64,000 nucleotides of DNA from NCBI GenBank assembly GCA_015039365.1, contig WION01000282.1, forward strand, positions 1-64,000, read 5' to 3'. Under the pieces are notes generated by a model that was not told where the DNA came from, searched no databases, and was given only the letters and a program-made list of their open reading frames with translations. The translations under genes and the position numbers were made by a program. The DNA comes from Amanita rubescens. Lineage: Eukaryota > Basidiomycota > Agaricomycetes > Agaricales > Amanitaceae. The stretch's first letter is position 1; every line of letters starts with the position of its first letter. Of this stretch, positions 3,414 to 39,566 are shown piece by piece.

Positions 3414-4766
3414 ATGAGTTCCGACATAACAATACCAACCGAAGTTTTATGCGATATCTTTCATCTTCTTTGCGATGCACCTATCGCTCTCCATGATTTG
3501 AAGAACGAATCACACTTTCACGAGTTCCCGTGGGCCGTTGGACAGGTTTGCAGGCACTGGAGAGGCGCATTTCTGTCCTACACGCATTTGTGGACCTCTT
3601 TTGCCCTAAAGCCCGGCACTTTCAACAACCCCGCTTACTTTGTTGAAATGAACCGGCGCGCGACCATATACCTCGAACGATCTGGAGAGCAGCCTCTCAC
3701 GATAGTCGTGTCCATGCTGTGTTCAGACACCAAAAAATTTCCTAAAACGGTTTGGGGAATGTTATTATCGTGCTTGAAGCGATGGAAAAAGGCCGATTTG
3801 GTGCTGGGGTATGGATCTGCGCTAGACGAACTCCTCAGATGCAGAGGGTACATGTCGAGCCTCGAGTCCCTCAAGATGTCAATTCCCGACGAGGATTTTA
3901 TAGTCCTGAAGCACTATAACGCATTCCAAGTCACACCCCATTTAACTGAACTCGATCTAGTCTGCCCCGAATACGCGGCAACATGGCAATTCCCTTGGGC
4001 ACAATTGACGAAGCTCAAACTAGCAGCATACTGCGAAGAGTTCAACGAGGACCTGGACAACAATATTCTGTGGGGAGTTCTGTTCCAGTTAAAAAATATC
4101 GAAGAGTTAACCATCATCACACCCTTCAACTACGACCGATGGTACCCTCCCTCACTTCCCATTATACTCCTACCTTGCCTTCGGCTTCTTGAGACCACCT
4201 TAGCCTTTGCCCCGATCTTCTCTTGGTTCACTGCGCCTTTACTGGAACATCTCCACATACACGGGCACATCGAAGTCGGCATCCCTCAGCATATTGAGCC
4301 CTACGAGAGAGAAATAGTGTCTTTAATCCAACGTTCATCTTGCCACATTCGCCGATTGGCATTTGAGAGCTACTGTTCAACGGAGGAGATGCGCGTAGTA
4401 ATGAAAGCACTGGATAGCGTTGAAGAGCTCTCCATTGATGCATGTCCCCTCATTCCTATAATACAGGAGATTACAGGACTTGATGACTACATCTACTTGC
4501 CTAAACTGCAGGTACTGCAGGTGACGCGTAATGTTTGGAGTCATGTAGAGAAAATAGTGGCATCATTTTCTCAACTTTTGGAGGCGCGGGGGATGGGATT
4601 GCCCCTTGCGAGCCAGGATATCGTGCCTCTCGAGAAGTTGGTGCTCCGGTTGACCATCATGGAAGGAAAGTGGCCCGAGCTCTTGGAAGCGATGCGCGGT
4701 TGGCCATCCTGTGCTCAAGTTTACATCAACGGCTCGGTGCTCGAGAAATTGACTCCATCCCATTGA
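3414..4766 (+). CDS. F-box protein with LRR-like C-terminal region
   Basis: An uninterrupted 450-residue protein. The F-box-like motif occupies about residues 7-65: IPTEVLCDIFHLLCD, a short insert, then VGQVCRHWRGAFLSYTHLW, with the Trp/Leu pattern that binds Skp1. The rest is a series of Leu-rich segments with PxLTELDL- and LEELSI-like spacing that would form an open solenoid for substrate binding. Such proteins are expanded in agaricomycetes and act as SCF ubiquitin-ligase adaptors; the substrate is unknown. The start is the first in-frame ATG, just before the F-box, and no intron is needed. An inverted, decayed copy of its 3' end lies just upstream. Family assignment is firm; function is inferred from the family. 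Confidence 0.8.
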   Translation: MSSDITIPTEVLCDIFHLLCDAPIALHDLKNESHFHEFPWAVGQVCRHWRGAFLSYTHLWTSFALKPGTFNNPAYFVEMNRRATIYLERSGEQPLTIVVSMLCSDTKKFPKTVWGMLLSCLKRWKKADLVLGYGSALDELLRCRGYMSSLESLKMSIPDEDFIVLKHYNAFQVTPHLTELDLVCPEYAATWQFPWAQLTKLKLAAYCEEFNEDLDNNILWGVLFQLKNIEELTIITPFNYDRWYPPSLPIILLPCLRLLETTLAFAPIFSWFTAPLLEHLHIHGHIEVGIPQHIEPYEREIVSLIQRSSCHIRRLAFESYCSTEEMRVVMKALDSVEELSIDACPLIPIIQEITGLDDYIYLPKLQVLQVTRNVWSHVEKIVASFSQLLEARGMGLPLASQDIVPLEKLVLRLTIMEGKWPELLEAMRGWPSCAQVYINGSVLEKLTPSH

Positions 4767-6098
4767 TAGGAGTACCAAGAAGTATTGAATCGAGAGGCTT
4801 GGGGAAACACGGAACTGTGTTTCATCGACCCAAGACGGCAGCGTCCTTAAAAGCGCACGCGGCTCGGGTTTTGGGGAGGTCAAGGGGCTTGTGGAAAATC
4901 AAGTTTGAAGGTGGGATTGGGGGTGGGCCGGGAGCGAGAGGGAGGAAGGGGAGGAAGTTGGCTGAGTGAATATGAGTTATGGCGGAACTTGTTGGACGAG
5001 TACCGTTATCAGTGTAATTATTGTTAATTTTTCGAAATAAGGAAGAAAGAGTCAAGTACCCGTTATACATAATACCAGTGCGAACACATTCACCAAGCAT
5101 AGCAAAGGGAGCATTCAAGCGAAATAACTCAACCTTTCGCGCTATGGTTATATCACACCAAGCGTTTGAATTTCCTCAATCAGTCGCGAGAACGCTACGT
5201 ACCATCTGTTTGCGTATCGTCCAGACGTACGAACTACAAATAGCTAGGATGGATTTTTTTAATAACTTAGGGTGGCCAATGACCGATTAAGCGAAGGCGC
5301 GCCGGGGAACTAAATCGGTTCCTGGCATCGAGAAGAACAAGAAACAACTTAAAGGTAATTACAACATGGGTATATAGGATTTCTAGAATATAACCATATA
5401 TCCACGGCCATAGGACTCTGAAAGCACCGCATCCCGTCCGATCTGCGCAGTCAACCAGAGTGCCGCCTAGTTAGTACCACGGTGGGGGACCACGCGGGAA
5501 TCCTGGGTGCTGTGGTTTTTTGTACCGACTCATACATTTTACATCGCTCTGTTATTCTACATTCCTAAACATCAAGCCAAACATCCACCCCGATGGTCTA
5601 CCGGTTTGTAGAAGAATTGTCGACCTTAGCATGGGGTATAAAATCGTCAGTGGATTTGGTAAACTTCGGATACGAAGGGTAGACTGCGGACCAATTGCTA
5701 GATAATTGATATCATAGAAGTGAAGCACAAATTCATGAAAGATCGACATTAATAAACCCTACAAAATGATAGGACCAACAGAATCCTGCCAAAATGTCGT
5801 GGTATTGTACCTCGAAGAAACCTTTTTTTTTGTGATCTTGGAAGCCGGTCAGATGCATCGCTCTGAGTCAGGGAGATATTCGAGATGCGCATGAGAATCG
5901 GTACCTCGGTATCCTTACAGTCATACGAAGCATCCCTATCTATATTTAGCATCACCGTCGTGAGCGAGGCGTGCGAATAAACCCATTCAGTAGTTTCTTC
6001 CCAATAGGGACTCTGACGATCTCAATCCTTGCATGCGATTGTGAGTTACTACCACTTACGTTGTTGTATGACTTTTGTTGACATGTCCCGGGTCCTTA
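4767..6098. other. Intergenic, no supported gene
   Basis: The region between the intact F-box gene and the F-box relic. A G-rich run lies at about 4912-4950 and AT-rich DNA near 5000-5050. Short open frames on both strands show no domain and no splice-consistent exon chain. Nothing else was recognised. Confidence 0.5.
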
Positions 6099-7495
6099 CA
6101 GATAGCATCGCTGCCATTGATCTTCGCGATACTTAGTAATATCCGCGATGCCCGACATCCCTGTAGAGATATTGCACGAGATTTTCAAGCAAAGTTTGTC
6201 CTCGCCCTTGCGAGTTCACCAACCATGCGAATTTCCATGGTACCTCGGCCATGTCTGTTCCCGGTGGCGAGCCTTGTTCTTCTCGATGCGGTCTACGTTC
6301 TGGAGTAACGTCGAGATCGAAATGCGGATCGGGGATTCCTGGGGTTCATTCGACCGTATGTATGAAATCGTAAATTTCTTTTTCGATTGCACTCGTGGGG
6401 CACCATTCTCTTTTACGTTTAGCATGGATATCCTTGGCGACGTCCGCTCAATGCTTAGGCATTTTATCGAACATTCGGCGCAGTGGGAAGAAGTGTCCGT
6501 TCAACTGAAGACACTTGTTGTATTCCTCCAGGGTACCAAGGGTCGTCTTCCGCTGTTGAAAAAACTGGAGATAATTGAAGATAGGTATCATCAGCCGATG
6601 CACAGCGAAAGTATGCAAAGTATCGACGCGCCTCGTTTAACGCACGTCGTACTACGGGATAACTCTCCATTGTTGCAAGTTCAATTGGTCGTCACTGACC
6701 GTTATTCACTTTCACCACACAATGCATCCTGAAAGAATCCTCGCTGCTCTTCGAGAGGCCAATAACTTGGTGGAGCTTACTGCTGAACGCTACAAGGATA
6801 CCAGTGGAGACATATCGGTTCATCTTCCGCATTTGAAATGCTTGTCAGTCTCTGGGGTGGAACTCCTGACCATCTTAGAAACACCTGCTTTGCGACGATT
6901 GAGGATTGGGTTCCGATCAGGACAATAATGGCCTTGACGAGGCTGGCATTACAGTATCCTTCCTCCGCAGATCAGAGATCAAACTCAGCACGCTTGTTCT
7001 AAAGTGCGCCAGGGCAACGATTATCGAAGAGATCCTTCCATTCGCGCCCGAAGTTAACAATTTGGCTTTGCTCCAGGTCCGACGTGTTGCCGGTGTATTC
7101 AAATGGCTTGCTGAACGAGAACTTCAAATCAACAATTTAAGCGTAACATGGCAATTTACCATAGATTCAATACTTGCCGAAGAAGGCTTGTCAGCACTGC
7201 ACGACATGATAACTAGTCAGCACCCTTTAGGTGATTCGAGGAATCCGAGTCCCAAAGAAGTAATTATCCAAACTATTAGTGGGGGTCAAAGGTGCCGCGG
7301 CGAGTTTGAAATCAGCGTGCAGGAGTAGGGGAATTCGATTTGGGTTCGCAGAAGAAATGCCAACATTAAATTGGGGTATCGAGACGTAAGCTCACAGCCT
7401 TAGATTTTGATACGTGGCCGGGTCCATAACGTTACTATACAAGTTATTGTGTTGTTATAAAGGCGAAGTATGAATTTCAGAGTTTATAGACAATT
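6099..7495 (+). repeat. Inverted segmental duplication, copy 1
   Basis: This segment matches the reverse complement of about 15925-17338. Homology begins upstream of the F-box relic start, at ACAGATAGCATCGCTGCCAT (near 6099), and continues past its stop through GGCCGGGTCCATAAC (near 7413) to about 7495. It therefore includes flanking DNA as well as the gene, and shows DNA-level duplication, not convergence of protein sequence. Confidence 0.75.
6148..7389 (+). pseudogene. F-box gene relic with several frameshifts
   Basis: Starts with an F-box-like N-terminus (IPVEILHEIFKQ ... YLGHVCSRWRALFFSMRSTFW). It aligns along its whole length with the copy at 16043-17270, but the frame breaks at least three times: near 6685, near 6925 and near 7280, the last just before the conserved tail RFGFAEEMPT. 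No short-intron solution joins these frames. Whichever copy is the parent, this one can give at most a truncated 194-residue product that keeps the F-box but loses the substrate-binding half. It was probably an SCF adaptor before decay. Confidence 0.75.
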
Positions 7496-27020: not shown

Positions 27021-30000
27021 ATGACAGACACTGGTTCACCTGGATCTAGTGGGTCAAATATGATATATCTCGGCTTGATCAAAGTTTGAGTTGTACATGA
27101 CAGAAGCAGACATGGAAGAAGCTGTTGCTATGCGCAGGAAGCAATACAAATGCCCCTATTTTTGTATTCTTGTCATAGGAAGAGCTAATGCAGGCAAGAC
27201 TACAATCCTTGAGAAGGTTTGTGGTGTAGCAAAGGGAACAAAGCCAGTCTTTATATATGATGAAGAGGGTAAGTTTGACATCAAAACCTATGTAAATCTA
27301 CTTTTCTTCAGTGTCTTTCAGGTGATGAATTGGAACCTGATGAGACCCATGTAACACCATCAATTGAGGTGAGTTGATTGGCCAAATATCCTTGTGCTCA
27401 CTGAGGATCATTGAATGGTAAGAGAGGCATTCATGATATCGAACATCAGATTACATATGAAGGGAGCAACTTTATCTTCCATGACTCTCAAGGTTTTGAA
27501 TCTGGTGCAAGAGAGGAGCTAGAGGTTGTCTGGGACTTCATTGAGAAGAAGTCCAATGCACCTCATCTGAGAGATCAATTACATGCAATTTGGTATTTTG
27601 GCATTGGTACTTCAATGCACAATCAACTGATCTCAGGTTTCATAGGTACTGTCTACCCATGGATAGTGCCCGCCCAATTCTGCCTACAGAACTTGAGTTC
27701 TTTAATAAAGGAACAGGAAAAGGTAAGCCATGAAGCCAATCAATTCCTAGTGTAACAGTGAACAAATTATACCTTCTCCCCATAGCTCCTTTGGTGGTTG
27801 TCTTCACTAAATTTGATGGTCTAATAGTGCAAGAATCTGGAAAATTAAATGACATAGAGGATGATGAAGTTAAGTGGAACATAGCCAGAAAGAATGCTGA
27901 AATTACTCTTCAGAGGGTTTATCTGCCTAAAGTTTTTGAAACCAAATATCCTCCAAAAGCATATGTGTGTTTGGAAGGTGAGAACAATAAACTTCAAGAT
28001 AGAAATTATGTTTTTTTTTTGGAATAGATATGGACATGCCAGAAAATGATTGTCCTGAATTGACTAAGAAGACTGCTGATGTGATTGATGATGCTAGTCT
28101 GCGAGAACTTTTTGTTTCAACACAAAAGAACAACCTTGATCTTTGTGTTCAATATGCACTTGAGTGAGTATTATGTTAAATCTGACTTTCAGTTGTTGAG
28201 TCTTTAGACATGTCCTTCGCCGAGACAACACCACATGGGAAGATGCTTTTATCATAGCTCTCAGCAAGTTTCCTCATTACTGGGTATTTTCAAATAACAT
28301 GTCATGAATGTTGAAAAACTGAGTTGAAAATGATAGGCTGGCAGAGAAGTATGTTTAGTTTGTACAGAAGACATGCAGTTTGCAGATGACATTATTGAAG
28401 CAGGATGTGAGTACTACAGTGAATTGCTTTTCTTTAATGGTGTACTTTGCTAAACAGGCCCAGGATGAAGGGCATGATGTATGTTCCACTTTTTGTTACC
28501 CACACAGTTTTTGAATAACTGGAGACACAACATTGCATCAAGCAACATGATGAAATTGATGTGAGTAGTACCACAAAATTTCAACTGTAGGTCTGACACC
28601 TTTAAAAATATTAAGTGGGTAAGTGATATTGAAAAAATCATAAACTTCAATGTGCACTGATATTAAAACAAACAGTTTGTGAGTAATATATTCATTTGCA
28701 ACCAGGAAGTTTATCATGAGAAACAGGAAGTGAGTGATAATACTACATCTTCTGTGGCAAACTCTCATCAAGTATGACCTTAACAGATGGTAAGGAATAC
28801 CTCTTTGAGAAGCAGTTCAATTGGCATATCATATGGTCTCATGCCATGACCAATGGCAGGCAGTGAGTGGCAACACTGTGACTTTGGCCAGCCATTCACA
28901 TGTCATGCATTATGCCACACAGGATGTAAGTGCACCCACTTTTGATGGAAAGCAGTTTCATCATGTTCCCTATGACTTATAGGAGGTAGTGCTACACTGT
29001 ATTACTACTTTCTCCTGGCAGATGATCACATGCCAACAGATGGTGAGCTGCAATATATTGACTGCAAAACAGTCTGACAACATCCATGGCCACTTAGGCA
29101 GTAGGTGGCACTAAACACATATATATAAAGTAGTCTCATTTCATTCACAGGAAGTGAGTGACACCTGTCAGATGTCTATAGGGATGCTTCAGCATTATGC
29201 GTTGGCAGAATGTGAGTGAGTATGCATGATCCTTTACACAGTAATTTCATATGGGGAACAGGAAGTAAATGATATTACACTTCTTTTGCCAAGCTGACCA
29301 ACACATTTAATTCAACAGAGAGTGAGTACTAATTGCATTATGTTCCAACCATAACAAATCCCATTGTCTCAACAATAGAGAGTATGTAAACAATCAATGG
29401 TTTGATGGCTAGACAAATTCATTGTGTATATGCTCAACAGAATGTGAGGAATATCCACTTGGTGTAGCCCACAAGACTCATTTTATAATTAATAGTATGT
29501 AAGCAAGAGTTCTTTTTTTTGCTAGGAAGTCACAAAGTCCATGACCAACAGCTTGTGAGTTTCACTTTTTTTTTTCCTTTTTGACAGGCAATCTATGGTA
29601 TCACATCTTGTTCCATGACTCCAGGAAGTGAGCAGTATTTGCTTATCAGGCACCCTCATCATATCTACTTCCATGAAATCAGTATGTGAGTGACACCACA
29701 TTTTCATTTTTGACATGCAGTCCTGTCACATCTCATACATTGACCAATGACAGGATGTGAGCAATACTACATTTAGACAGTCTCTCAGTGCATCCCATCC
29801 CATGACCAACAGAATGTGAGTAACATGGTGTCATTCTTTTTCTTTGCCATGCAGCCTCACCACATTTTAAAACAGTTTGTAAGTGGTGCTGCAGTTTCTT
29901 CTTTGCCAGCCTGTCTAATTTATCTCACCCCATGACCAACAGGACTCAAATGTCAGTGACATTGCAATTTATCCTTTGCCAGACAGTCTTATCACATCTC

Positions 30001-32236
30001 ATCCCATGGCAAACAGCATGTGAGTGAAGATGCAGTTTTTTCCTTCAATCCCACCCCCATCTAATCCATTGACCAACAGGGAGTGAGTGATACCTTCATT
30101 TTTTTTTCATTTGCAGCCAGGCAGTCTCACCCCATGGCCAATAGCTTGTGAGTGATTGTCTTTGCCAGGCAGTCTCATCACATCTCATTCCATGATTAAC
30201 AGGGTGTGAGTTATACTGTGTCATTTTTCCTTTGCCAGTGTCCCATCACATGACCAATAGGTTGTGAGTGACATTGCATTTGTCTTTAACAGGAAATCCC
30301 ATCCCATCATCACATGACCAATAGCTTGTGAATTACTTTTTTATTTCTTCCTTTTCCATCTTATTTCATGACCAACTCAGGGTGTGAGTGATACTGCATT
30401 CCTCTTTTCCCTGGCACTCTCATCACATCTTAACCAATAATCAACAGCTTGTGAGTGCCAACACTGTATCCCTTTCTCTTTGCCAAGCAGTCTCATCACA
30501 CTACATCTCATAAGCTTGTGAGTGCTAGAACATTTTTTCTTTGTCAGATACTATTCAACACATCCCACAACACCACTTGACCAATAGAATGTGAGTGTTT
30601 TTCCTTTGTCAGGAAGTCTCATTACATCCCATTCAATGACCAACAGGATGTGAGCATCACTGCCTCTTTTCTTTTCCTGCAATTTCATCACACCCATGAC
30701 CAATAGCATGTGAGTGATACTAGTACCTTTCTTTTCTTTTCCAGGCAGTCTCATCACATCACATGATCAGCTTGTGAGTGATATTGCTTTCTTTAATCAC
30801 CAGGGAGCCTCATTACATCTTATTCCATAACCAACAGGCAGTGAGTGGATTTTCATTTTAATTTGCAAAGTGACAGTCATTACATCAAATCTTATGATCA
30901 ATAGAGAGTTAGTCATGTTTTCTGATATAATCTATTATCACCATTTCATATCACATTCAACAGAATGTAAGTGGTGTTACATTCCTTTCCATCAGACAAT
31001 TTTGGCCCACAAGTAACAGAAGGTGTGTCACATAGGGTTTTGCTTGGCCATGCTGATCATATTTGTCTATAACCAACAGAGAGTGAGTGCCACTACCAAA
31101 GTAGACTGACTCATCTCATCCCATCTGGCCCATGTCATGACCTATAGAGAGTAAGCCCAGTGTGTTCATCATGGCTGTTTCATCTTACCTCAAAGTTGCA
31201 TGACTAACAGCAAGTAAGTGATGCTGCCCTGGCAAGCAACCTGACACACCTCATACTATTTATTATCACTTGTGGTCAATAGTTTGTAAGTAACATTGCA
31301 CTTATTTCAAATCATCTCTCTCTAATATACATATACACCATACTTGATATTATTGTTAGTTTGTGAGTGCCAATGTGGTTCTTTGCATCATCTGACTCTC
31401 CAGATACATCCCTGTTTCTCAAACAGAAAGTGAGTGGTATTGCACTTCACTTCCTGTATGGTATTCCCATCCATAAATGCAGAGAGTGAGCAGAATTACA
31501 CTTCTCTCAAAGCATCATGATATGAGTTTGACAGAAAGTGAGTGAATCTCTACTTTTTATGTGCTGTCTTATGTATTTACAATCTTATCAATATTTACAG
31601 ATTGTAAGACATTAGTTCAATTTTCTCAAACTTTTCCTGATAACATTTCCAGGTAAGTAATCACAATGTTGAGATATCAATGGCCATACTAATATTACTC
31701 AGCTTGTATGTTCTCTCTACTAAGCTAAATTCCTACATAATTTCACACTTCCTGTTTTCAGCCCCAACTTCTCTCATCATTTGGAAATCATATAACACAA
31801 TTCTCAGAAACTGTAAATTTATTGCCTTTTTTGTGGTATTGCAACCTTAATTGATGCTGTAACTAGCCTACTGCATGTCAAATCTTAGCTGGTAGTAGTA
31901 GTGCATCTTATTTTACTTTCTTGGACTTACATTTTACAGCAATCACTATCATTGCAAAACTGTCATTTTGGGTAGCAAAGCCAGCTGAGGAATTAATCAT
32001 TGCTGAAGAAATGCCACTATTTGAACAATCAATCACGGAAGCTTCTTACCAGTTCAAAAGAGGAGGTTATGTGGAAAAACTGAAGAGTTGCATTACTTCT
32101 GACTCTTTACCTTCTGGTTATGATGATTTAGTTCCATTCATGTTTGCCCAAACTTGTAGTATGTGTTATTAACACTTTCAACTCCATGATATCTCAATGG
32201 CCCATCATTGCAGTTCAAACCCTTGCCATAGGATAA
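27021..32236 (+). CDS. P-loop G-domain protein encoded by ~65 exons, including 50 micro-exons
   Basis: Ordinary exons: 27021-27048, 27104-27268, 27322-27368, 27423-27592, 27646-27722, 27786-27977, 28028-28163, 28208-28283. Shrinking exons follow (28337-28348, about 28401-28406, 28458-28478, 28543-28560), then 50 micro-exons (28616-31705), then 31762-31812, 31867-32158 and 32214-32236. The lengths total 1470 nt, an exact 489-residue frame. Motifs: G1 GRANAGKT (near 27180), G3 DSQG (near 27480), G4 TKFD (near 27810). The N-terminal half is a TRAFAC-type GTPase domain of the MMR/AIG sort expanded in mushrooms. The C-terminal half has a hydrophobic segment (FTAITIIAKLSFWVAK) and a helical part ending DDLVPFMFAQT. 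Start: ATG 27021 with a 55-nt first intron; ATG 27097 is an alternative. The gene is visibly more AT-rich than its neighbours. Function beyond GTP binding is unknown. Confidence 0.75.
28616..29498 (+). other. Micro-exon array, block 1 (16 single-codon exons)
   Basis: Each exon is 3 nt, preceded by AG and followed by GT. Start positions and codons: TGG 28616; TTT 28676; GAA 28727; ATG 28787; GCA 28860; GAT 28923; GAG 28983; ATG 29040; GCA 29098; GAA 29151; AAT 29209; GAA 29262; AGA 29319; AGA 29379; AAT 29441; TAT 29496. Read together they give WFEMADEMAENERRNY, an acidic then basic helical-looking stretch. Intervening introns are 48-70 nt. In this block the introns share their ends (GTGAGT/GTAAGT ... 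CAACAG/CACAG) but little internal sequence, so they may be the older members of the array. Confidence 0.65.
29552..30517 (+). other. Micro-exon array, block 2 (15 single-codon exons plus one 9-nt exon)
   Basis: Start positions and codons: CTT 29552; GAA 29625; TAT 29683; GAT 29754; AAT 29813; TTT 29876; GAC-TCA-AAT 29943 (the only 9-nt member); CAT 30017; GGA 30080; CTT 30145; GGT 30203; GTT 30261; CTT 30325; GGT 30381; CTT 30448; CTT 30515. They read LEYDNFDSNHGLGVLGLL. Here the introns are plainly related: most contain TTTGCCAGGCAGTCTCATCA or a close variant and end CCATGACCAACAG. CTT and GGT recur in the same order, as expected if intron-plus-codon units were copied in tandem. Confidence 0.65.
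30588..31705 (+). other. Micro-exon array, block 3 (18 single-codon exons)
   Basis: Start positions and codons: AAT 30588; GAT 30647; CAT 30707; CTT 30771; GCA 30838; AGA 30905; AAT 30964; AAG 31020; AGA 31080; AGA 31148; CAA 31211; TTT 31283; TTT 31360; AAA 31427; AGA 31483; AAA 31535; ATT 31601; CTT 31703. They read NDHLARNKRRQFFKRKIL, a strongly basic stretch that runs on into the next normal exon (PQLLSSFGNHITQFSET, 31762). Introns are 49-74 nt, except the last step (31604-31702), which looks like two introns with no exon between them. Intron similarity fades towards the right edge. Confidence 0.65.
31604..31702 (+). other. Double intron with zero-length exon (AG|GT junction at 31652/31653)
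   Basis: This 99-nt interval is about twice the size of its neighbours. It divides into a 49-nt intron (GTAAGAC ... TTTCCAG) and a 50-nt intron (GTAAGTAAT ... ATTACTCAG with a TACTAAT branch motif) that touch directly. AG followed at once by GTAAGT is the layout of a recursive-splicing ratchet point. It may be a unit that lost its codon. A single 99-nt intron would keep the same frame. Confidence 0.6.
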
Positions 32237-33740
32237 ATCATGGATCACACCAGACCCCAGAAATTCATTGGCAGTGCCTTGGCACATTCAATTTAGCTAT
32301 GGTCTTTGTTGAATCTCCCTTTTTGACTCCTATGCAATACCTCAAATACCACGACCCTTTTGTTCAAATGAATCTCCAGTATTTCAGTTTTACATAAATT
32401 TCATCCAAGGCTACTATCCCCAGACCCCACAATTCTATGGCCTAGATTTTGCACAAGTAGGAGCTGAATTGAATGTACATTGTGCTTCTGTCCTGGGCCT
32501 AGCACACCATACATAGCATGCAGATAAATAGGTTTGTTGAAAAGGATAGCATGGCAGGCTGGGGTCACACTGCAGATATACTATACAGATGTGGATGCTA
32601 AATTTGTTGTCACTCGAGCCTTACTAGCACGGTTAGGGAATAAATAACACGGGCAGTGTTATATGATTCCCTGGGCTGCACTGCAGTGCCTAGCCAGGGC
32701 CTAGGTCCTATTGTACCTTTTGCCACCGCACGGATCCGTTGACATATCGAAGTGCAGAACTTACGGTCAAATCTGATTTGTAGATTGAACGTGATTCCTT
32801 GGGAAAAGAGCAATGCAGATCAATAATCAATTACACTAACAAGATTCCGAATCATCACGTTTCAACTTTCGGTTCCGGGCAATCTCGTGCCAACGCAACA
32901 TTTAAATAAAGAAGGCTCACATCAATCATATACTCACAAGGCGGCAGCGACCACATTTAGCCTGGAACACTGGCAGATTAGCTAGTCAAGCTAGTCAAAA
33001 ACGAACCTGCTAACTATAACATACTTCCTGCGGACTTCTGTCTATGTTATCCTGCCCGCGATTGGAGCTCGATGGCTGGCATATGGGCCATGTACCACCC
33101 GGTTGGGGGCGAGCAGAAATTTCTGCTTTGCCGAGGCTCAAGGAACGGAGGTTTGGTCGCTTAGCAGCAAGGTCGTGCTCGAAACATTTGAAGTCGGCTT
33201 CGATCCGTCTACGGAGGGGGAATTGTAATGGTGGAGTCGGTACTTGTTTTTCGTAAAGAAACACAACACATGCCAACAATCAATAGGAAGTACGGCCGGG
33301 TTGAAATTACTTCCGAATGGCATCACAGTGCATCAACATCCGATTATTATCTCTTGTAAGTATCTGCTTTCATTCAATGAGATCCAATTCAGTGACATGA
33401 AGGCATCGACATAAAAGTACGCGTGTGAGCTGCCGTAGGGAACGGCAGCGGAGTGACTGCGCGAGTGTCGCGGACGATGGATAACCTCCCAAGATTATGC
33501 GCACAAACCCGTTTGATAACCAGAAACCTCTGAAACGTACGGTGAGACTGCAGCGGAGTCTCTTCTTTTTGCGCAGCACTGTTTATATTGATCCCAGCAA
33601 TTCTGCTACATAGATACACACCACTTTTATATATTCAAACGTAAAGGGGCCTCGTTTTATCAGCTTAAAAGATCTCCATATGCCTGTTCTCAATCGCACA
33701 TCCCTAGGTCCTCCGAGGTCGTTCCACTGTGCCAGCGATA
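32237..33740. other. Intergenic, 1.5 kb without a supported gene
   Basis: The first ~400 bp stay AT-rich like the G-domain gene; composition then returns to the local norm near 32.6 kb. CTGCACTGCAGTGCCTAG near 32670-32690 is a small self-complementary patch. Open frames are short and without domains. The last ~100 bp before 33741 are likely promoter for the ferric reductase copy. Confidence 0.45.
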
Positions 33741-35984
33741 ATGTCCTTCGGCACAATTCCTCCCTTTCTCCTAGGCAAAGCAGCAGATACCCATAATCAG
33801 CCTCCTCCAGATAACGACCTCTTGCTGGTAGAGCGTGTCGATATCTTCATTGCTGCCCTGGTTGGCTTTCTTGCACTTCTCCGCATTCCTCGCTTGCTTG
33901 CTAGGCTCTGGAAATGGTCTGAATGGTCTGAAGGCCATTTTCTTCGTTTTAAAGTAGGAAACCGATGGGCACTATCAAGTCCTAGTGCTAATAATGCTAA
34001 CCCGATAAAAAAATCGCGGTCTGACAAGCCAGAATTCGCTATGACCTGCGAATCAGACTCATGTTGCAACCAAACTGACCAACAACATTTCCGAGTCAGC
34101 ACTCTAGAGCACCCACGAATCACGTATTCACCACATATACCAGCTTTTCCCGCCTTCTTACGACCTGTCGCCGAATATCTACGCTTGTCCATTATACCCG
34201 GATATTCTAATTCACAGGTCCTAGTCATGCTGGTGTATTTGGGGATTTTGTTATTTGCGCTCTTCTATCGTTCCGACTTCTTCAAGAACCCAAAGCGGCC
34301 AGGTTTAGTTGCTGCCTCTCAGTTACCGTTTGTGTTTGCATTCGCGGCAAAAAATAATGTACCTGGTTCCCTCCTTGGAATCGGATATCAACATGTGTGT
34401 TTTTTCGTTGCCTAGCATCAGCATTTGGTCACGTTCATTTCAGCTAAATTATTTCCACCGTTATGCCGGGCGTTTGGTTGTCCTTGCGGTCAACGTCCAC
34501 GCCGTCGGAAATGGCACGTACCAAATACTATCCATTTGCCTGCGTATTGATTTCGTGAAGTCTATCGATGGGCCACCTTAGGGACCAACATTTCTCTCTC
34601 GCTCCGCCGTCCGTCCAATATATGGGGCCTGGTGGCTCTGGCTTGCATGAATATTATCTTTGTGTTCTCTATCCCCGTCCTTAGAGCAAGGGCATACAAC
34701 TTATTCAGAATCACTCACCTCGTGGGTTATCTGCTCGTTGTTCCTGCCGTAAGTGGATTCTCCTATATGTACGTGTGTTTTAAACCCATAGGGCACTAGT
34801 TATACCTGCATCATCCGACCACTCTCCCATTTATTATCGCTATTTCAGCTGTCTATCTCCTGGACGTAGTGCTTTGCTTACTCAAGACGCGCATCGTCAC
34901 GGCAAAGATTCGTCCCTCTGTCGACCCTTTCTGCGACATGCGTTGAAATTTCATCACTCAATTATGGTTGGCGGGCCGGCCAACATGTTCGGATACGAGT
35001 TCTGTCCTTATCCCTTGGATGGTTCAGCTGGACTGAGCCTCATCCATTCACTATCGCGAGTGCTCCGGTCACATCAGAGGGAGGTCATGCAATGGAAGGG
35101 CTTGTTTTGATTTGCAAAAAGGCAGGTGGATGGACAGGGAGGCTATTCGACATGGCCAAGGCTTCCCAATCAACTGAATCTGGTGTCAGAGGTACCAGTC
35201 GGACTATCAGAATTTTAATTGAGGGCCCGTATGGTAATTCAATCGCTCGGAAATCTGTCAACGATTAACGTCATGCACGATAGGAGGACCCGGTCATGCG
35301 ATGTTCGATTCATACTCTGCTGTCGTCACGATTATAGGCGGTAGCGGCATTACATTCGCATTGCCGATTATTCAAGACCTGGTGCAAAAAGGTTTGCGTG
35401 GTGAAGGTCGTGCCAAGGTGATTAAACTCGTGTGGATAGTCCAGAATTCAGGTTCGCCCGCGTTTCATAGTCTAACGTCATACCCCTTACGATGCGGAAA
35501 TATTGTAGATGCCACGACACCTCTATTGCCTGTCCTCGCGTCACTGGTCAACTCGTGCCCCTACTTGACCATCTCTGTCCATTATACTCGCACTTCGTCT
35601 ATAGAGGTGAAGGACTGTGACTATAGTTCTACCTTTAGTCCTAGCAGGATCCCAGAACAAGTTTCGATAGGACATCAAATAACAATGTACCCAGGCCGTC
35701 CAGGACAACGATATCTTGTCAGCGTGATGGAAAATGCCATCGCACAGGCAACTAGAAATCTGAGGGACGCGAGTGGAACTTTATCAAATCGCAACCCTAG
35801 TGGAATGCTGGTCGGCGTTTGCGGTCCCCCAGGGATGAGCACGGACGTTGTTGCCGCGGTATCTGGCATCAGGTCGAAGATGAAAGCTCGGATTGGAGGT
35901 GTGGAAATGCATCAGGAGTGCGTTGATCTTGCTTCATGTTTTGGATGACAGCTGACTCGAGGCTCCAGGACATTCAAATTCTGA
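33741..35984 (+). pseudogene. Ferric-reductase-like protein, copy A (probably disrupted)
   Basis: FRE/NOX-type layout: N-terminal helices, PFVFAFAAKNNVPGSLLGIG, haem-binding helix NYFHRYAGRLVVLAVNVHAVG with spaced His residues, an FAD motif HPFTIAS (near 35040), NAD-site motif EGPYGGPGHA across an intron (35220-35300), and IIGGSGITFAL. The end (HQE plus TFKF) is reached through an intron at about 35916-35965. Ferric reductases reduce Fe3+/Cu2+ chelates at the plasma membrane using NADPH, FAD and haem. Compared with copy B there is one extra base near 34930-34945, just before the FAD-binding part, and the intron after the second haem His would start with GC. Either the gene is a recent pseudogene or the base is a sequence error. 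Confidence 0.7.
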
Positions 35985-37400
35985 GTTTTTCTGTCTGATA
36001 TGTCGGCCAATGTATATCAGAGATATAAACACCAGGTGACAAGTGTAGTAATAGAGTTAGTTATGTGCCGACATGTTCTGTAATTTGCCTTCCTGTAGAG
36101 TTACTGACCTTCTTCCTCCTTGTCTGTTATTTGCTTGCTGGCATAGCAGAATCAGACAGTTTGCCGTTTTTAGCCAATTGATATAAAGTCGTTGCCTGCC
36201 GCTGTCATGGGAGTATTAGTACAGAGTCCCATGGCCACTATTTTCGCCTTTTCAGTCACATTCGTAGTTCTCCTCTTGCGCATTTCTGGAAGAGGAGCCC
36301 AAAAGAAATTAGTCACAGTGTTTGAGAAAGTCGGTAGATACTAGACCCATCGTGTTTAAACTACGCAGCGAGCATTGGCACGCAAATGCGTATCGGTGAC
36401 GCATCACCTTGCTAAGGAGTAGTTCAGCAATCGGAGTTCTGCAAGTAATTCAATGCTGAGAGGGGCAGTGAGCCGTGGCTCGAGTGTGACGTCACTCAGC
36501 AGGCTATCCCTAACGACGCACCTTGCTTGAACTTTAACCACGCGCTGGAGTGCCAGTTGTTTCATAGCAGTTGGAGGGGTTCATGGGGCGATAACAGAAG
36601 GACGCCGTTGTAGTTGCATCGATATCGTACTCAAGTACTCAAGTCCTGAACCGCTCGTGAGTAGTTTCAGCTGCCAGCCTTCATTGATTATAAATATCAT
36701 CATCGAAGTTCGCATTCTCTCCCAAACCTCTGGCAAATCCACCTCGCTGCGATGGTCACCATTTGCGGCCCCCAGTTTCCTCCTGCACAACTGTTACATA
36801 TATCCACACTGTCAATTTGAGCGCACACGTTTGTCGCTTGGGGGTCGCCAAGGACTCAGTAATGAGATGCACAGCATATGCCACATGCGCAGTTGGAATC
36901 TGAAAGTGAAACAGGACTTGGCAAGGCTTGTCTAATCTCCGGACTTCTCAGTTGAATGAGCACCGAGAAAGGCTAAAGTTGGTTTTACTTAGTGCTGCAG
37001 CGCTGATGAGTGAGACTGTACGTGAATATTAACCCTTATCATATGCGCCCAACTGATTATAATCACGACTCAAAGTCGCTACGGCATCTGTGCGTCGATT
37101 ATAAATCGACCTCTGATCCTTATCGATATCTAAGACGGTACGTTTGATGTTTCTATGCCGTAATACTAGTAGTGATGACTGCGGTCACAGAACTTCTTTT
37201 TACCCCAGTTATCATCTCGAGAATCAGACTGCCAAGAAATGTGCACAAGGCAGGTTAGTGCGGTCCTCCATGCTCCAACCCAACACATGCCCGATGCGTC
37301 CAGTGTGGCTGCGGGTTTCCGTAACTAATTTTGCTGCATAATAAATGCATATCGAACCTATTTTGGCACCCTCGTTCTCCGCTCGAAGCTCTAATCGACC
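35985..37400. other. Intergenic between ferric-reductase copies A and B
   Basis: No supported gene. The sequence is not an obvious copy of the region upstream of copy A, so the duplicated unit seems limited to the gene. ATATAAATGC-like AT-rich motifs near 37335-37350 may belong to the promoter of copy B. Confidence 0.45.
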
Positions 37401-39566
37401 ATGTTGCTCGTGGATTATATCGATATCCTCATAGCTGCCCTCATTGGCTTCCTTGCATTGTTTCAGCTTCCCCGCGCGCTTGTTAGGCTCAGAAAAAGGT
37501 CGGAATGGTCCCAGGGCCATTTTTTTCAATACAAAGCAAGAAACAGTCAGGAGCTGTCGGGTTCGAGCCACGAGTCAGGCGCTATCCCCACCAAAGAACA
37601 TTTATCCAGTGATCCTGTTTCTGCTGCGACCAGTGAAGCACACGCGTTTAACAATCATGGTGACCGCAGACAACTGCTTAAAATGGCAGAGGCTACGCAA
37701 CCCTCGTATCCCCCACATATGCCAACTTACCCAGCATTCCTACGTCCTTTCGCGGAGTATCTCAGTCTTTCTATCGTACCCGGATATTCCAACTGGCAAG
37801 CCCTAGTCATGCTGGCATATTTAGGGATCTTGCTATATGTGTTTTCTTACCACTCGAATTTCTTAAAAAATCCCAGGCGGTCAGGCATGATTGCTGCTTC
37901 TCAGCTACCGTTCTTGTACGCGTTCGCATCAAAGAACAATGTGCCCGGCTCGCTTCTAGGAATTGGGTATCAAGGTGTACGTTGTTCTCTACATGTCTAG
38001 TATTGGTTTCGGCCTTAACTTTATTCCAGCTTAATTATTTTCACCGATACATCGGCTGCCTAGTTGTCCTTGCAGTCAACGTTCACGCTATTGGCTGGTG
38101 TACGTCCGGAATTGATTTCATCTACGCGTTTTGCATATTGATTATGGCAGTCTATCAGTTCACCACTCTCGGTACCATTGCTACCGAGTTTAAAGACCCA
38201 GCCAATAGGTGGGGTCTGGTCACTTTGATATGCATGGATATCATCTTTGCGTTCTCTACGCCCATCGTCAGAGCAAGGGCGTATAACTTATTCTCACTCA
38301 TGTCGTGGGCTACTTGCTCATTGTTCCTGCTGTGAGTGGATATACACATCCCATATCTTTCAATACTTATACGACGTCAGTTGCACGCGCATTATCCACA
38401 AACTCTCCCATTTATTATCGCCGTTTCGGTTGTATACCTTCTGGATCGCGTACTTTGCTTGCTCAAGACACGCCTCGTTACTGCTACAATCAGTCCGTTA
38501 TCGGCCTTTTCTGCGACGCGCGTTGAGATTCCCTCCCTCAATCATGGTTGGCGGGCTGGTCAACACGTTCGAATACGCGTCCTGTCCTCATCGCTTGGTT
38601 GGTTCGGTTGGATGGAGCCACATCCATTTACCATTGCCAGCGCACCGGTCGACTCAAACATCGATCTCATCGAGGAACAAGGGCTTGTTTTGATATGCAA
38701 GAAGGCTGGTGGATGGACGAGCAAACTATTTGATATGGCTAAGGCCCCTCCTGTCGATTCCGGTGCTACCCTTACCAACAGAACTGTCAAGATTTTAATT
38801 GAAGGCCCATATGGTAGGTCATTTTTAGCAATATATCGACGACTAACATCATGCGCAAATAGGGGGACCCGGTCACGCGATATTCGCCTCATATTCTGCT
38901 GTCGTCATGATCATAGGCGGTAGTGGCATCACATTCGCCCTGTCGACTATCCAAGACTTAGTGCAGAAGGGCCTAAGGGGTGACAGTCGCGTCAAAGTAA
39001 TTGAACTCGTGTGGATGGTCCAAAGTCCAGGTTCCTGTCTTTCTTCCCTCGTGAAGTCGTGTCCCTTACGGAGTGGTGTTATTGCAGATACCATAGCGCC
39101 ACTGTTACCGCTTCTCACATCGCTCATGAACTCATGCTCATACTTGAACATCTCCATCCACTATACTCGCCCTTATACCCCCCAGATGGAACAGAAAAGC
39201 GGTAGCTCTGGTTCAACCAGTGGTCCAGATCGATCACAAGCGGATCCGTCAGAGCATCGCATAGTGAAGTACGCGGGCCGCCCAGGGCAACGACATCTCG
39301 TTAGCATGATGGAACAAGCTATCTCTCGTGTAACTACTGGTGTCAGCGATGCGACACGGAGTTCAGCTCAAGATATTCCTAGCGGGATGCTTGTTGGTGT
39401 TTGTGGCCCCCAGGGAATAAGCAAAGACGTTGTTTCTGCGGTTTCTAGCGTCAATTCGAAAATGAAGGCTCAGATTGGAGGCGTTGAAGTACATCTAGAG
39501 TATGTCAGTCGTATTTGTTTTGAGGGACGATGGCTGATTCTCGATTCCAGGACTTTTGGATTCTGA
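37401..39566 (+). CDS. Ferric-reductase-like protein, copy B (best preserved; one suspected indel)
   Basis: Exons: 37401-37976, 38030-38099, 38151 to about 38331, then from the acceptor near 38388 to 38813, and three more to 39566. Landmarks: LLVDYIDILIAALIGFLAL; haem helix NYFHRYIGCLVVLAVNVHAIGW; GWRAGQHVRIRVLS; FAD motif EPHPFTIASAP; NAD-site EGPYGGPGHAIF and IIGGSGITFAL; a C-terminal GMLVGVCGPQG; end ETFGF. By family a plasma-membrane metalloreductase feeding high-affinity iron or copper uptake, though no Fet3/Ftr1-type genes are near. After NLF (near 38292) this copy lacks 4 nt present in copy A, so the conserved text that follows (VVGYLLIVPA) is out of frame. If real, it removes the FAD/NAD half. 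Confidence 0.65.

Follow-up and report, generated by a model that had tools for sequence, protein, structure and literature searches.

Predicted Exon Structure of the Window Gene

We analyzed a 64,000-nt stretch of the Amanita rubescens genome (positions 1–64,000 of contig WION01000282.1, assembly GCA_015039365.1; hereafter the window), in which a predicted gene carries, between a GTPase-like 5′ part and a C-terminal part, an array of exons that are nearly all one codon long. All positions given below for this gene are those of the forward strand of the window, and its micro-exon interval is 28561–31761. The seven ordinary 5′ exons of the gene model (27097–27268, 27322–27368, 27450–27592, 27637–27722, 27786–27977, 28028–28163, and 28208–28283, plus strand), the regions of which are backed by translated similarity to paralogues, encode a predicted P-loop GTPase domain (27097–28283). 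When the window protein was compared with Pfam up to E 0.01, MMR_HSR1 was the sole family reported, matching the GTPase-like 5′ exons with E 0.0011 and 19.5 bits, just under the curated cut-off of 21.9, and GTPase Der was the only relative among solved structures (E 0.0052). Downstream, the same strand has four small leader exons of 12 nt (28337–28348), 3 nt (28404–28406), 21 nt (28458–28478, start provisional), and 18 nt (28543–28560, encoding QHDEID), which were modeled by aligning the window as DNA to six paralogues; L010 is without most of this leader stretch. The array itself (28616–31705, plus strand), which was identified by splice-site listing, splice-site chain, and gene model, consists of 49 one-codon exons and one exon of 9 nt, with introns of 48–99 nt. 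It is followed by four C-terminal exons (31762–31812, 31867–31891, 31940–32158, and 32214–32236, plus strand), which are supported by paralogue similarity and end with a TAA stop.

The joined model comprises 65 exons, 50 of which are 3 nt long (28404–28406 counted), and a coding sequence of 1380 nt, i.e., 459 codons and the stop. A first-pass annotation made from the sequence of the window had proposed a coding sequence of 1470 nt, which the paralogue alignment revised, as the small exons start earlier (from 28337) and 31892–31939 is an intron. For 56 of the 64 introns of the model, retention would disrupt the reading frame or introduce a stop.

In the micro-exon interval, AG-NNN-GT recurs at intron-sized intervals, and reading it in register with a GTRAGT donor gives the 49 exons of 3 nt; the sole 9-nt exon of the array (29943–29951, GACTCAAAT) encodes Asp-Ser-Asn. 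Site listing and gene model thus returned the same counts as the first-pass annotation, and its statements that all the array micro-exons are in phase 0 and that none of them is a stop codon also held in the window gene model. All 51 introns in the interval are GT-AG, with lengths of 48–74 nt apart from one of 99 nt. The latter had been described as a composite; its length is correct, and it is resolved into two adjoining introns of 49 and 50 nt (31604–31702, plus strand) with a zero-length exon between them (TTTCCAG|GTAAGT at 31652/31653); several paralogues have one at the equivalent position.

The strict pattern [CT]AG-N(k)-GT[AG]AG was found 39 times in the interval at k = 3 and at most once at each other k from 0 to 12, and 100 dinucleotide shuffles of the interval contained a mean of 0.20 strict sites, with a maximum of 2. 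With scoring matrices derived from the 49 window sites, the splice-site chain scored 914 in the window, whereas the best of 100 dinucleotide-shuffled versions of the interval scored 29. The array in the window is not a chance arrangement. Given that the chain finder favors 3-nt exons, it was rerun without this preference and with exon lengths of 1–12 nt allowed, and 893 of the 948 exons found in 17 loci were again 3 nt long, followed by exons of 6 nt (13) and 4 nt (8).

Array Family Across the Assembly

The first-pass annotation treated the array as a feature of a single gene, in place of which a family of arrays was found across the assembly. A 301-base probe matched 15 places in the genome of A. 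rubescens, among them the window itself and its identical copy on C2, and the loci examined for the other 14 places (L009–L022) contained 22 to 53 strict 3-nt sites each on the matching strand. In the whole assembly, a two-unit pattern with GTGAGTG donors gave 3053 matches (1532 + 1521), compared to 0 + 2 for the reversed-pattern control. With 4-nt spacing, this pattern gave 4 matches, all in one unrelated repeat; its reversed form gave 33, which exceeded the 4 forward matches and came from unrelated sequence. The conserved array start, a Trp exon followed by a Phe exon, occurred 85 times in the assembly and not at all in the control. Because the assembly looks haplotype-resolved, several of these 85 starts would be haplotype copies. 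Extrapolation from about 50 one-codon exons per array suggests that the assembly contains some 4000 of them.

C67 was considered as a contrast, i.e., a GTPase gene without an array, and was rejected because it bears arrays (L034 and L035). At C439:966938 (L036), no array was found within the 3.4 kb examined. We noticed that L010 contained two array genes on opposite strands and about 2 kb apart (19–736 on the plus strand and 4107–7135 in reverse-complement coordinates). Very long arrays, in which 85 and 36 one-codon exons were found, were present in L025 and L026, respectively (C3, about 126545–135773); they lie some 10 kb downstream of the array start at C3:115834, and this may be one gene split by an insertion. 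Counts at 7-base spacing were raised in L018 and L019 (17 each, minus strand) and in L021 (16, plus strand), perhaps through out-of-register reading of units.

Do the Three-Base Pieces Code?

Given that the exons were picked by splice signals alone, translating them tests the reading independently. One array per haplotype group was taken from the loci examined, and the 989 one-codon exons of the resulting 20 arrays included three stops, all of them TGA, where 65 were expected from position-specific composition and 46 from uniform codons. The third base of these codons was C in 1 exon, G in 8%, and A or T in all the others, while 59 of the 397 codons in the ordinary exons of the window gene end in C. 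Codons ending in AG were rare (AAG 10, GAG 9, and CAG 4, compared to AAA 82, GAA 126, and CAA 79), as if a second AG beside the splice site were avoided.

The peptides of 18 other arrays were globally aligned with the window peptide, with 300 shuffles each. For L010, L012, L013, L016, L020, L022, L027, and L028, the z scores ranged from 6.4 to 9.2 and none of the 300 shuffles reached the score, and for L018, L029, L030, L032, and L037 they ranged from 3.0 to 3.7 (0 or 1 of 300 shuffles). Peptides of the first group open with sequence similar to WFE..AD..A..ER..Y and close with sequence similar to KRQQFFKREI, and the part in between is variable. In a second group, L018, L029, L032, and L037 aligned with L023 at z 5.2–8.0, and L030 at 3.6.

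Copies were compared in nine pairs, three of which had diverged enough to be informative, the other six being nearly identical. L012 and L017 have no difference in 186 exon sites and 41 differences in 3007 intron-interior sites; the corresponding numbers were 4 of 174 and 72 of 3047 for L018 and L021, and 3 of 111 and 113 of 2167 for L037 and L038, after removal of units on which the finder's readings disagreed. By codon, 4 of 157 were changed in the three pairs, whereas intron divergence predicts 12.6 (binomial p 0.0038). The consecutive one-codon exons proposed in the first-pass annotation are supported by the alignment in order, above shuffles, of 13 of the 18 paralogue peptides (8 of them strongly), the depletion of stops over the 989 codons, and the retention of codons in diverged copies while introns drift, which is significant by codon and not per site. 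Coding by the one-codon exons is strongly supported by these sequence comparisons.

These results also bear on the alternative that the whole 3.2 kb is one intron removed stepwise, by recursive splicing, so that the three-base pieces would never be in the mRNA. Recursive splice sites resemble a zero-length AG|GT site, and such a site is present at 31652/31653 and in relatives. A strict regular expression found an AG|GT zero-length exon toward the 3′ end of the array in 10 of 40 sources, some of which end before the array does; the 10 were the window, L009, L012, L017, L018, L019, L020, L021, L027, and L030. A looser scan around the last unit found detected AG|GT in 7 of 21 arrays (window, L030, L032, L033, L037, L038, and L039), and a related zero-length-exon pattern matched the genome 16 times and the control not at all. 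If the codons were discarded, however, neither a codon order common to paralogues (8 of 18 at z 6.4–9.2), nor an about 20-fold depletion of stops, nor fewer codon changes than intron divergence predicts would be expected, and recursive removal of the entire interval is very improbable. In the window, L012, L018, L020, L027, and L030, an Ile codon precedes the zero-length exon and a Leu, Ile, or Phe codon follows it.

The short introns and the donors in the window, which are mostly GTRAGT, fit intron definition. In animals, intron definition has been termed the default for short introns, and PRP-40 has been proposed to aid micro-exon inclusion via intron definition (PMC8378409), while plants splice exons down to 1 nt (PMC8831610). 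Constitutive inclusion of the one-codon exons is plausible in this analysis. It is also possible, if rather doubtful, that the codons are real exons many of which are alternatively skipped in a combinatorial manner, similar to the cassettes of micro-exon genes, such that one gene would yield very many protein forms. Every array exon in the window is in phase 0 and has a length divisible by three, so any subset could be skipped in frame, and a stop codon found in one L038 unit would be tolerable if that unit were skipped. Most donors fit GTRAGT, however, and no feature dividing regulated from constitutive units was found, although none was systematically sought.

Introns and Codons Within and Between Arrays

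Introns and codons were compared within the arrays of 17 loci (830 units). Among 328 intron pairs that were at least 95% identical, most of them from one array, 19% had the same codon upstream and 18% had the same codon downstream, compared to 93% expected under copying and even mutation. In L023 (C8), units 37–73 mostly have a near-same 53-nt intron, and the codons between them include GAA, CGA, CAA, TAT, CTT, AAA, GAT, and GGA. Per-site diversity over 33 L023 units was 0.05 in the introns and 0.41–0.64 in the codons.

L023 has a close counterpart on C332 (L039). The first 16 codons of the two arrays are all the same (16 of 16), with introns there 98.8% identical, and their downstream flanks have an identity of 97.7% over 2181 columns. 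The arrays have introns in common, yet they differ in size (76 exons in L023 and 43 in L039), and their codons are unlike in the variable part. From these similarities, L023 and L039 are presumed to be alleles. A flank identity of 44.7% from an initial comparison was rejected, as it was produced by an insertion of about 1.3 kb in the C8 copy (L023 end to L024 start, about 80728–82079), which separates the array from the last exons and has no counterpart in the C332 copy. The matching ends share an overlap of 8 bases, which resembles the outcome of a transposon insertion. No link was found between intron variant and adjacent codon in L023 (p 0.16 and 0.61) or L039 (p 0.26 and 0.78), in tests that are weak because of few units.

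Whole units also come and go. We found indels of 58 bp with TAT and of 52 bp with GAT, i.e., with one codon each and with the predicted reading frame left intact, and a three-unit block in L023 (units 27–32) is duplicated along with its codons. One codon was exchanged whole, from TTT to GAA, with a linked base change 7 nt upstream; the new 18-mer generated by this exchange is present in other arrays (L022, L025, and L029), consistent with short gene conversion.

Near-identical introns with differing codons, as found in L023, could also be explained by introner-like mobile introns inserted between the codons of what was once an ordinary exon, with no need for units of an intron plus a codon to multiply. 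Such introner-like elements occur in fungi (PMC4457414). Their insertion at exactly every third base would, however, be unexplained, and both the single-unit indels and the block duplication in L023 carry codons together with introns. The uninterrupted segment from which such an array would have been derived was not found either in genome searches of limited sensitivity. The first-pass annotation had anticipated relatives with the linker in ordinary exons, but in a search of the genome of A. rubescens for the linker in one contiguous frame, only the exon at 31756–31815 and its C2 copy were found (E 0.121), and a second such search gave no match, both being of limited sensitivity and run with no positive control. 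Insertion of mobile introns is thus an unlikely origin of the arrays.

Proposed Interpretation

Dozens of consecutive codons in the window gene and its paralogues each stand alone between splice signals and are probably joined in the mRNA. We read the array as a fast-evolving, one-codon-per-exon segment of a predicted GTPase family. In the mechanism that we propose, introns of roughly 57 nt would be removed one by one and the codons joined into the mRNA. Each intron would be recognized across itself, since a 3-nt exon presumably leaves no room for exon definition, and recognition would be carried by GTGAGT-like donors and a TGAC-like branch site near the AG. Unequal exchange and short gene conversion would use the repeated introns as homology and may in this way add, remove, or swap single codons with no frameshift, and selection would keep or diversify the codons.

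Several observations weigh against this interpretation. The splice-site model had been trained on the 49 sites of the window itself. The peptides of L023, L025, L026, L031, and L035 have no significant alignment with that of the window. Counted per site, the three diverged pairs differ at 7 of 471 exon sites and 226 of 8221 intron sites, which is not significant (Fisher p 0.107); it should be noted that one whole-codon swap enters this count as three sites. The codon-level test in turn treats codons as independent, and its four changed codons include one that became TGA and one with a synonymous change. A TGA is found in the same array unit of L013 and L022, beside an odd 1-nt exon, another in L035, and L038 has TGA where L037 has CAA. 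At 97% intron identity, 189 of 190 intron pairs came from L023, i.e., from one array; the allele call for L023 and L039 was made from flank identity alone, and tandem arrays may be mis-assembled. The GTPase assignment depends on the sub-threshold Pfam match.

We also noticed that the 1-nt exon and TGA lie at 5697–5866 of L013 (plus strand) and 5505–5682 of L022 (reverse-complement coordinates), where either the model or the genes would be faulty. The few TGA codons and odd exon lengths could be taken to indicate that the array is a decayed or artefactual, unexpressed repeat beside a GTPase gene. In contrast, the GTPase-like and C-terminal exons are open in the window gene, and many paralogues have the same architecture, which makes such a repeat extremely improbable.

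If the array is a one-codon-per-exon coding segment as proposed, we would guess from its evolution that the GTPase uses the segment as a fast-evolving surface for recognition or contact. A more specific version, which we regard as tentative, is diversification codon by codon, in which each residue of a hypervariable GTPase segment would be an exchangeable cassette, the introns would be recombination substrates that splicing removes, and the array would be a rewritable recognition surface for self/non-self discrimination or defense, possibly with choice in splicing as well.

Arrays of this kind, if spliced, would set a new limit on the task of the spliceosome, as some 30 to 85 consecutive one-codon exons and even zero-length exons would have to be handled, and efficient intron-defined splicing would be required. 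The introns may serve protein evolution directly, with the repeated spacers permitting the gain, loss, and swap of codons in frame. Ordinary annotation is likely to miss or misjoin such genes, and similar families may therefore be invisible in other genomes.

Comparison With Known Systems

Runs of consecutive one-codon exons were not found among the matches listed in a literature search confined to open-licence papers. Under a broad definition of micro-exon genes (MEGs) as genes with consecutive symmetric exons of up to about 30 nt, the array has the structural part, with 49 of its 50 exons of 3 nt and one of 9 nt. The MEGs of schistosomes encode secreted proteins with a signal peptide, and their micro-exons are larger than those described here. 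Like the arrays, they have consecutive symmetric micro-exons within one gene family and variable proteins. Schistosome MEGs have been named as such, with differential splicing cited for them (PMC5825161). In contrast to them, the exons here are single codons, a GTPase-like domain comes first, and the introns are short and repeated.

The internal exons of the bicycle genes of aphids exceed one codon. These genes form a fast-evolving family in which the internal exons are numerous, unusually small, and of a single phase, and one of the genes, termed 'megacycle,' has >100 micro-exons (PMC9168663). In having many tiny internal exons of one phase and evolving fast they resemble the arrays, the introns of which are, however, all in phase 0, unlike the phase 2 of bicycle internal exons; repeated introns are not described in the portion of the bicycle paper available to us. 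Single-codon exons also occur in gene models of Phlebia radiata, for which the accessible part of the source describes neither consecutive runs nor a gene family.

In the HNWD genes of Podospora anserina (het-d, het-e, and het-r), which belong to the STAND genes, an NTPase is combined with a repeat array that controls specificity and is subject to concerted evolution (PMC2873952). The likeness lies in an NTPase joined to an array and, for L023 and L039, in an array that is homogenized while its variable positions differ; a role of the codons in specificity is conjectural. The repeated part in HNWD is a WD repeat of the protein, whereas here the introns form the repeated part and the variable codon alone would be represented in the protein. 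Neither of the HNWD domains, the NACHT NTPase and the WD repeats, was reported by Pfam up to E 0.01, which gave only the sub-cut-off MMR_HSR1. Families of near-identical introns are also a property of introner-like elements (PMC4457414), which are scattered over unrelated genes, while the arrays run head-to-tail with one codon between introns. The near-identical introns reported here were seen within an array, in a comparison that covered introns inside arrays.

Downstream of the array gene, the window contains two open frames at 33708–38000 with similar sequences (GYSNSQVLVMLVYLGILL and GYSNWQALVMLAYLGILL), which apparently represent a tandemly duplicated membrane protein.
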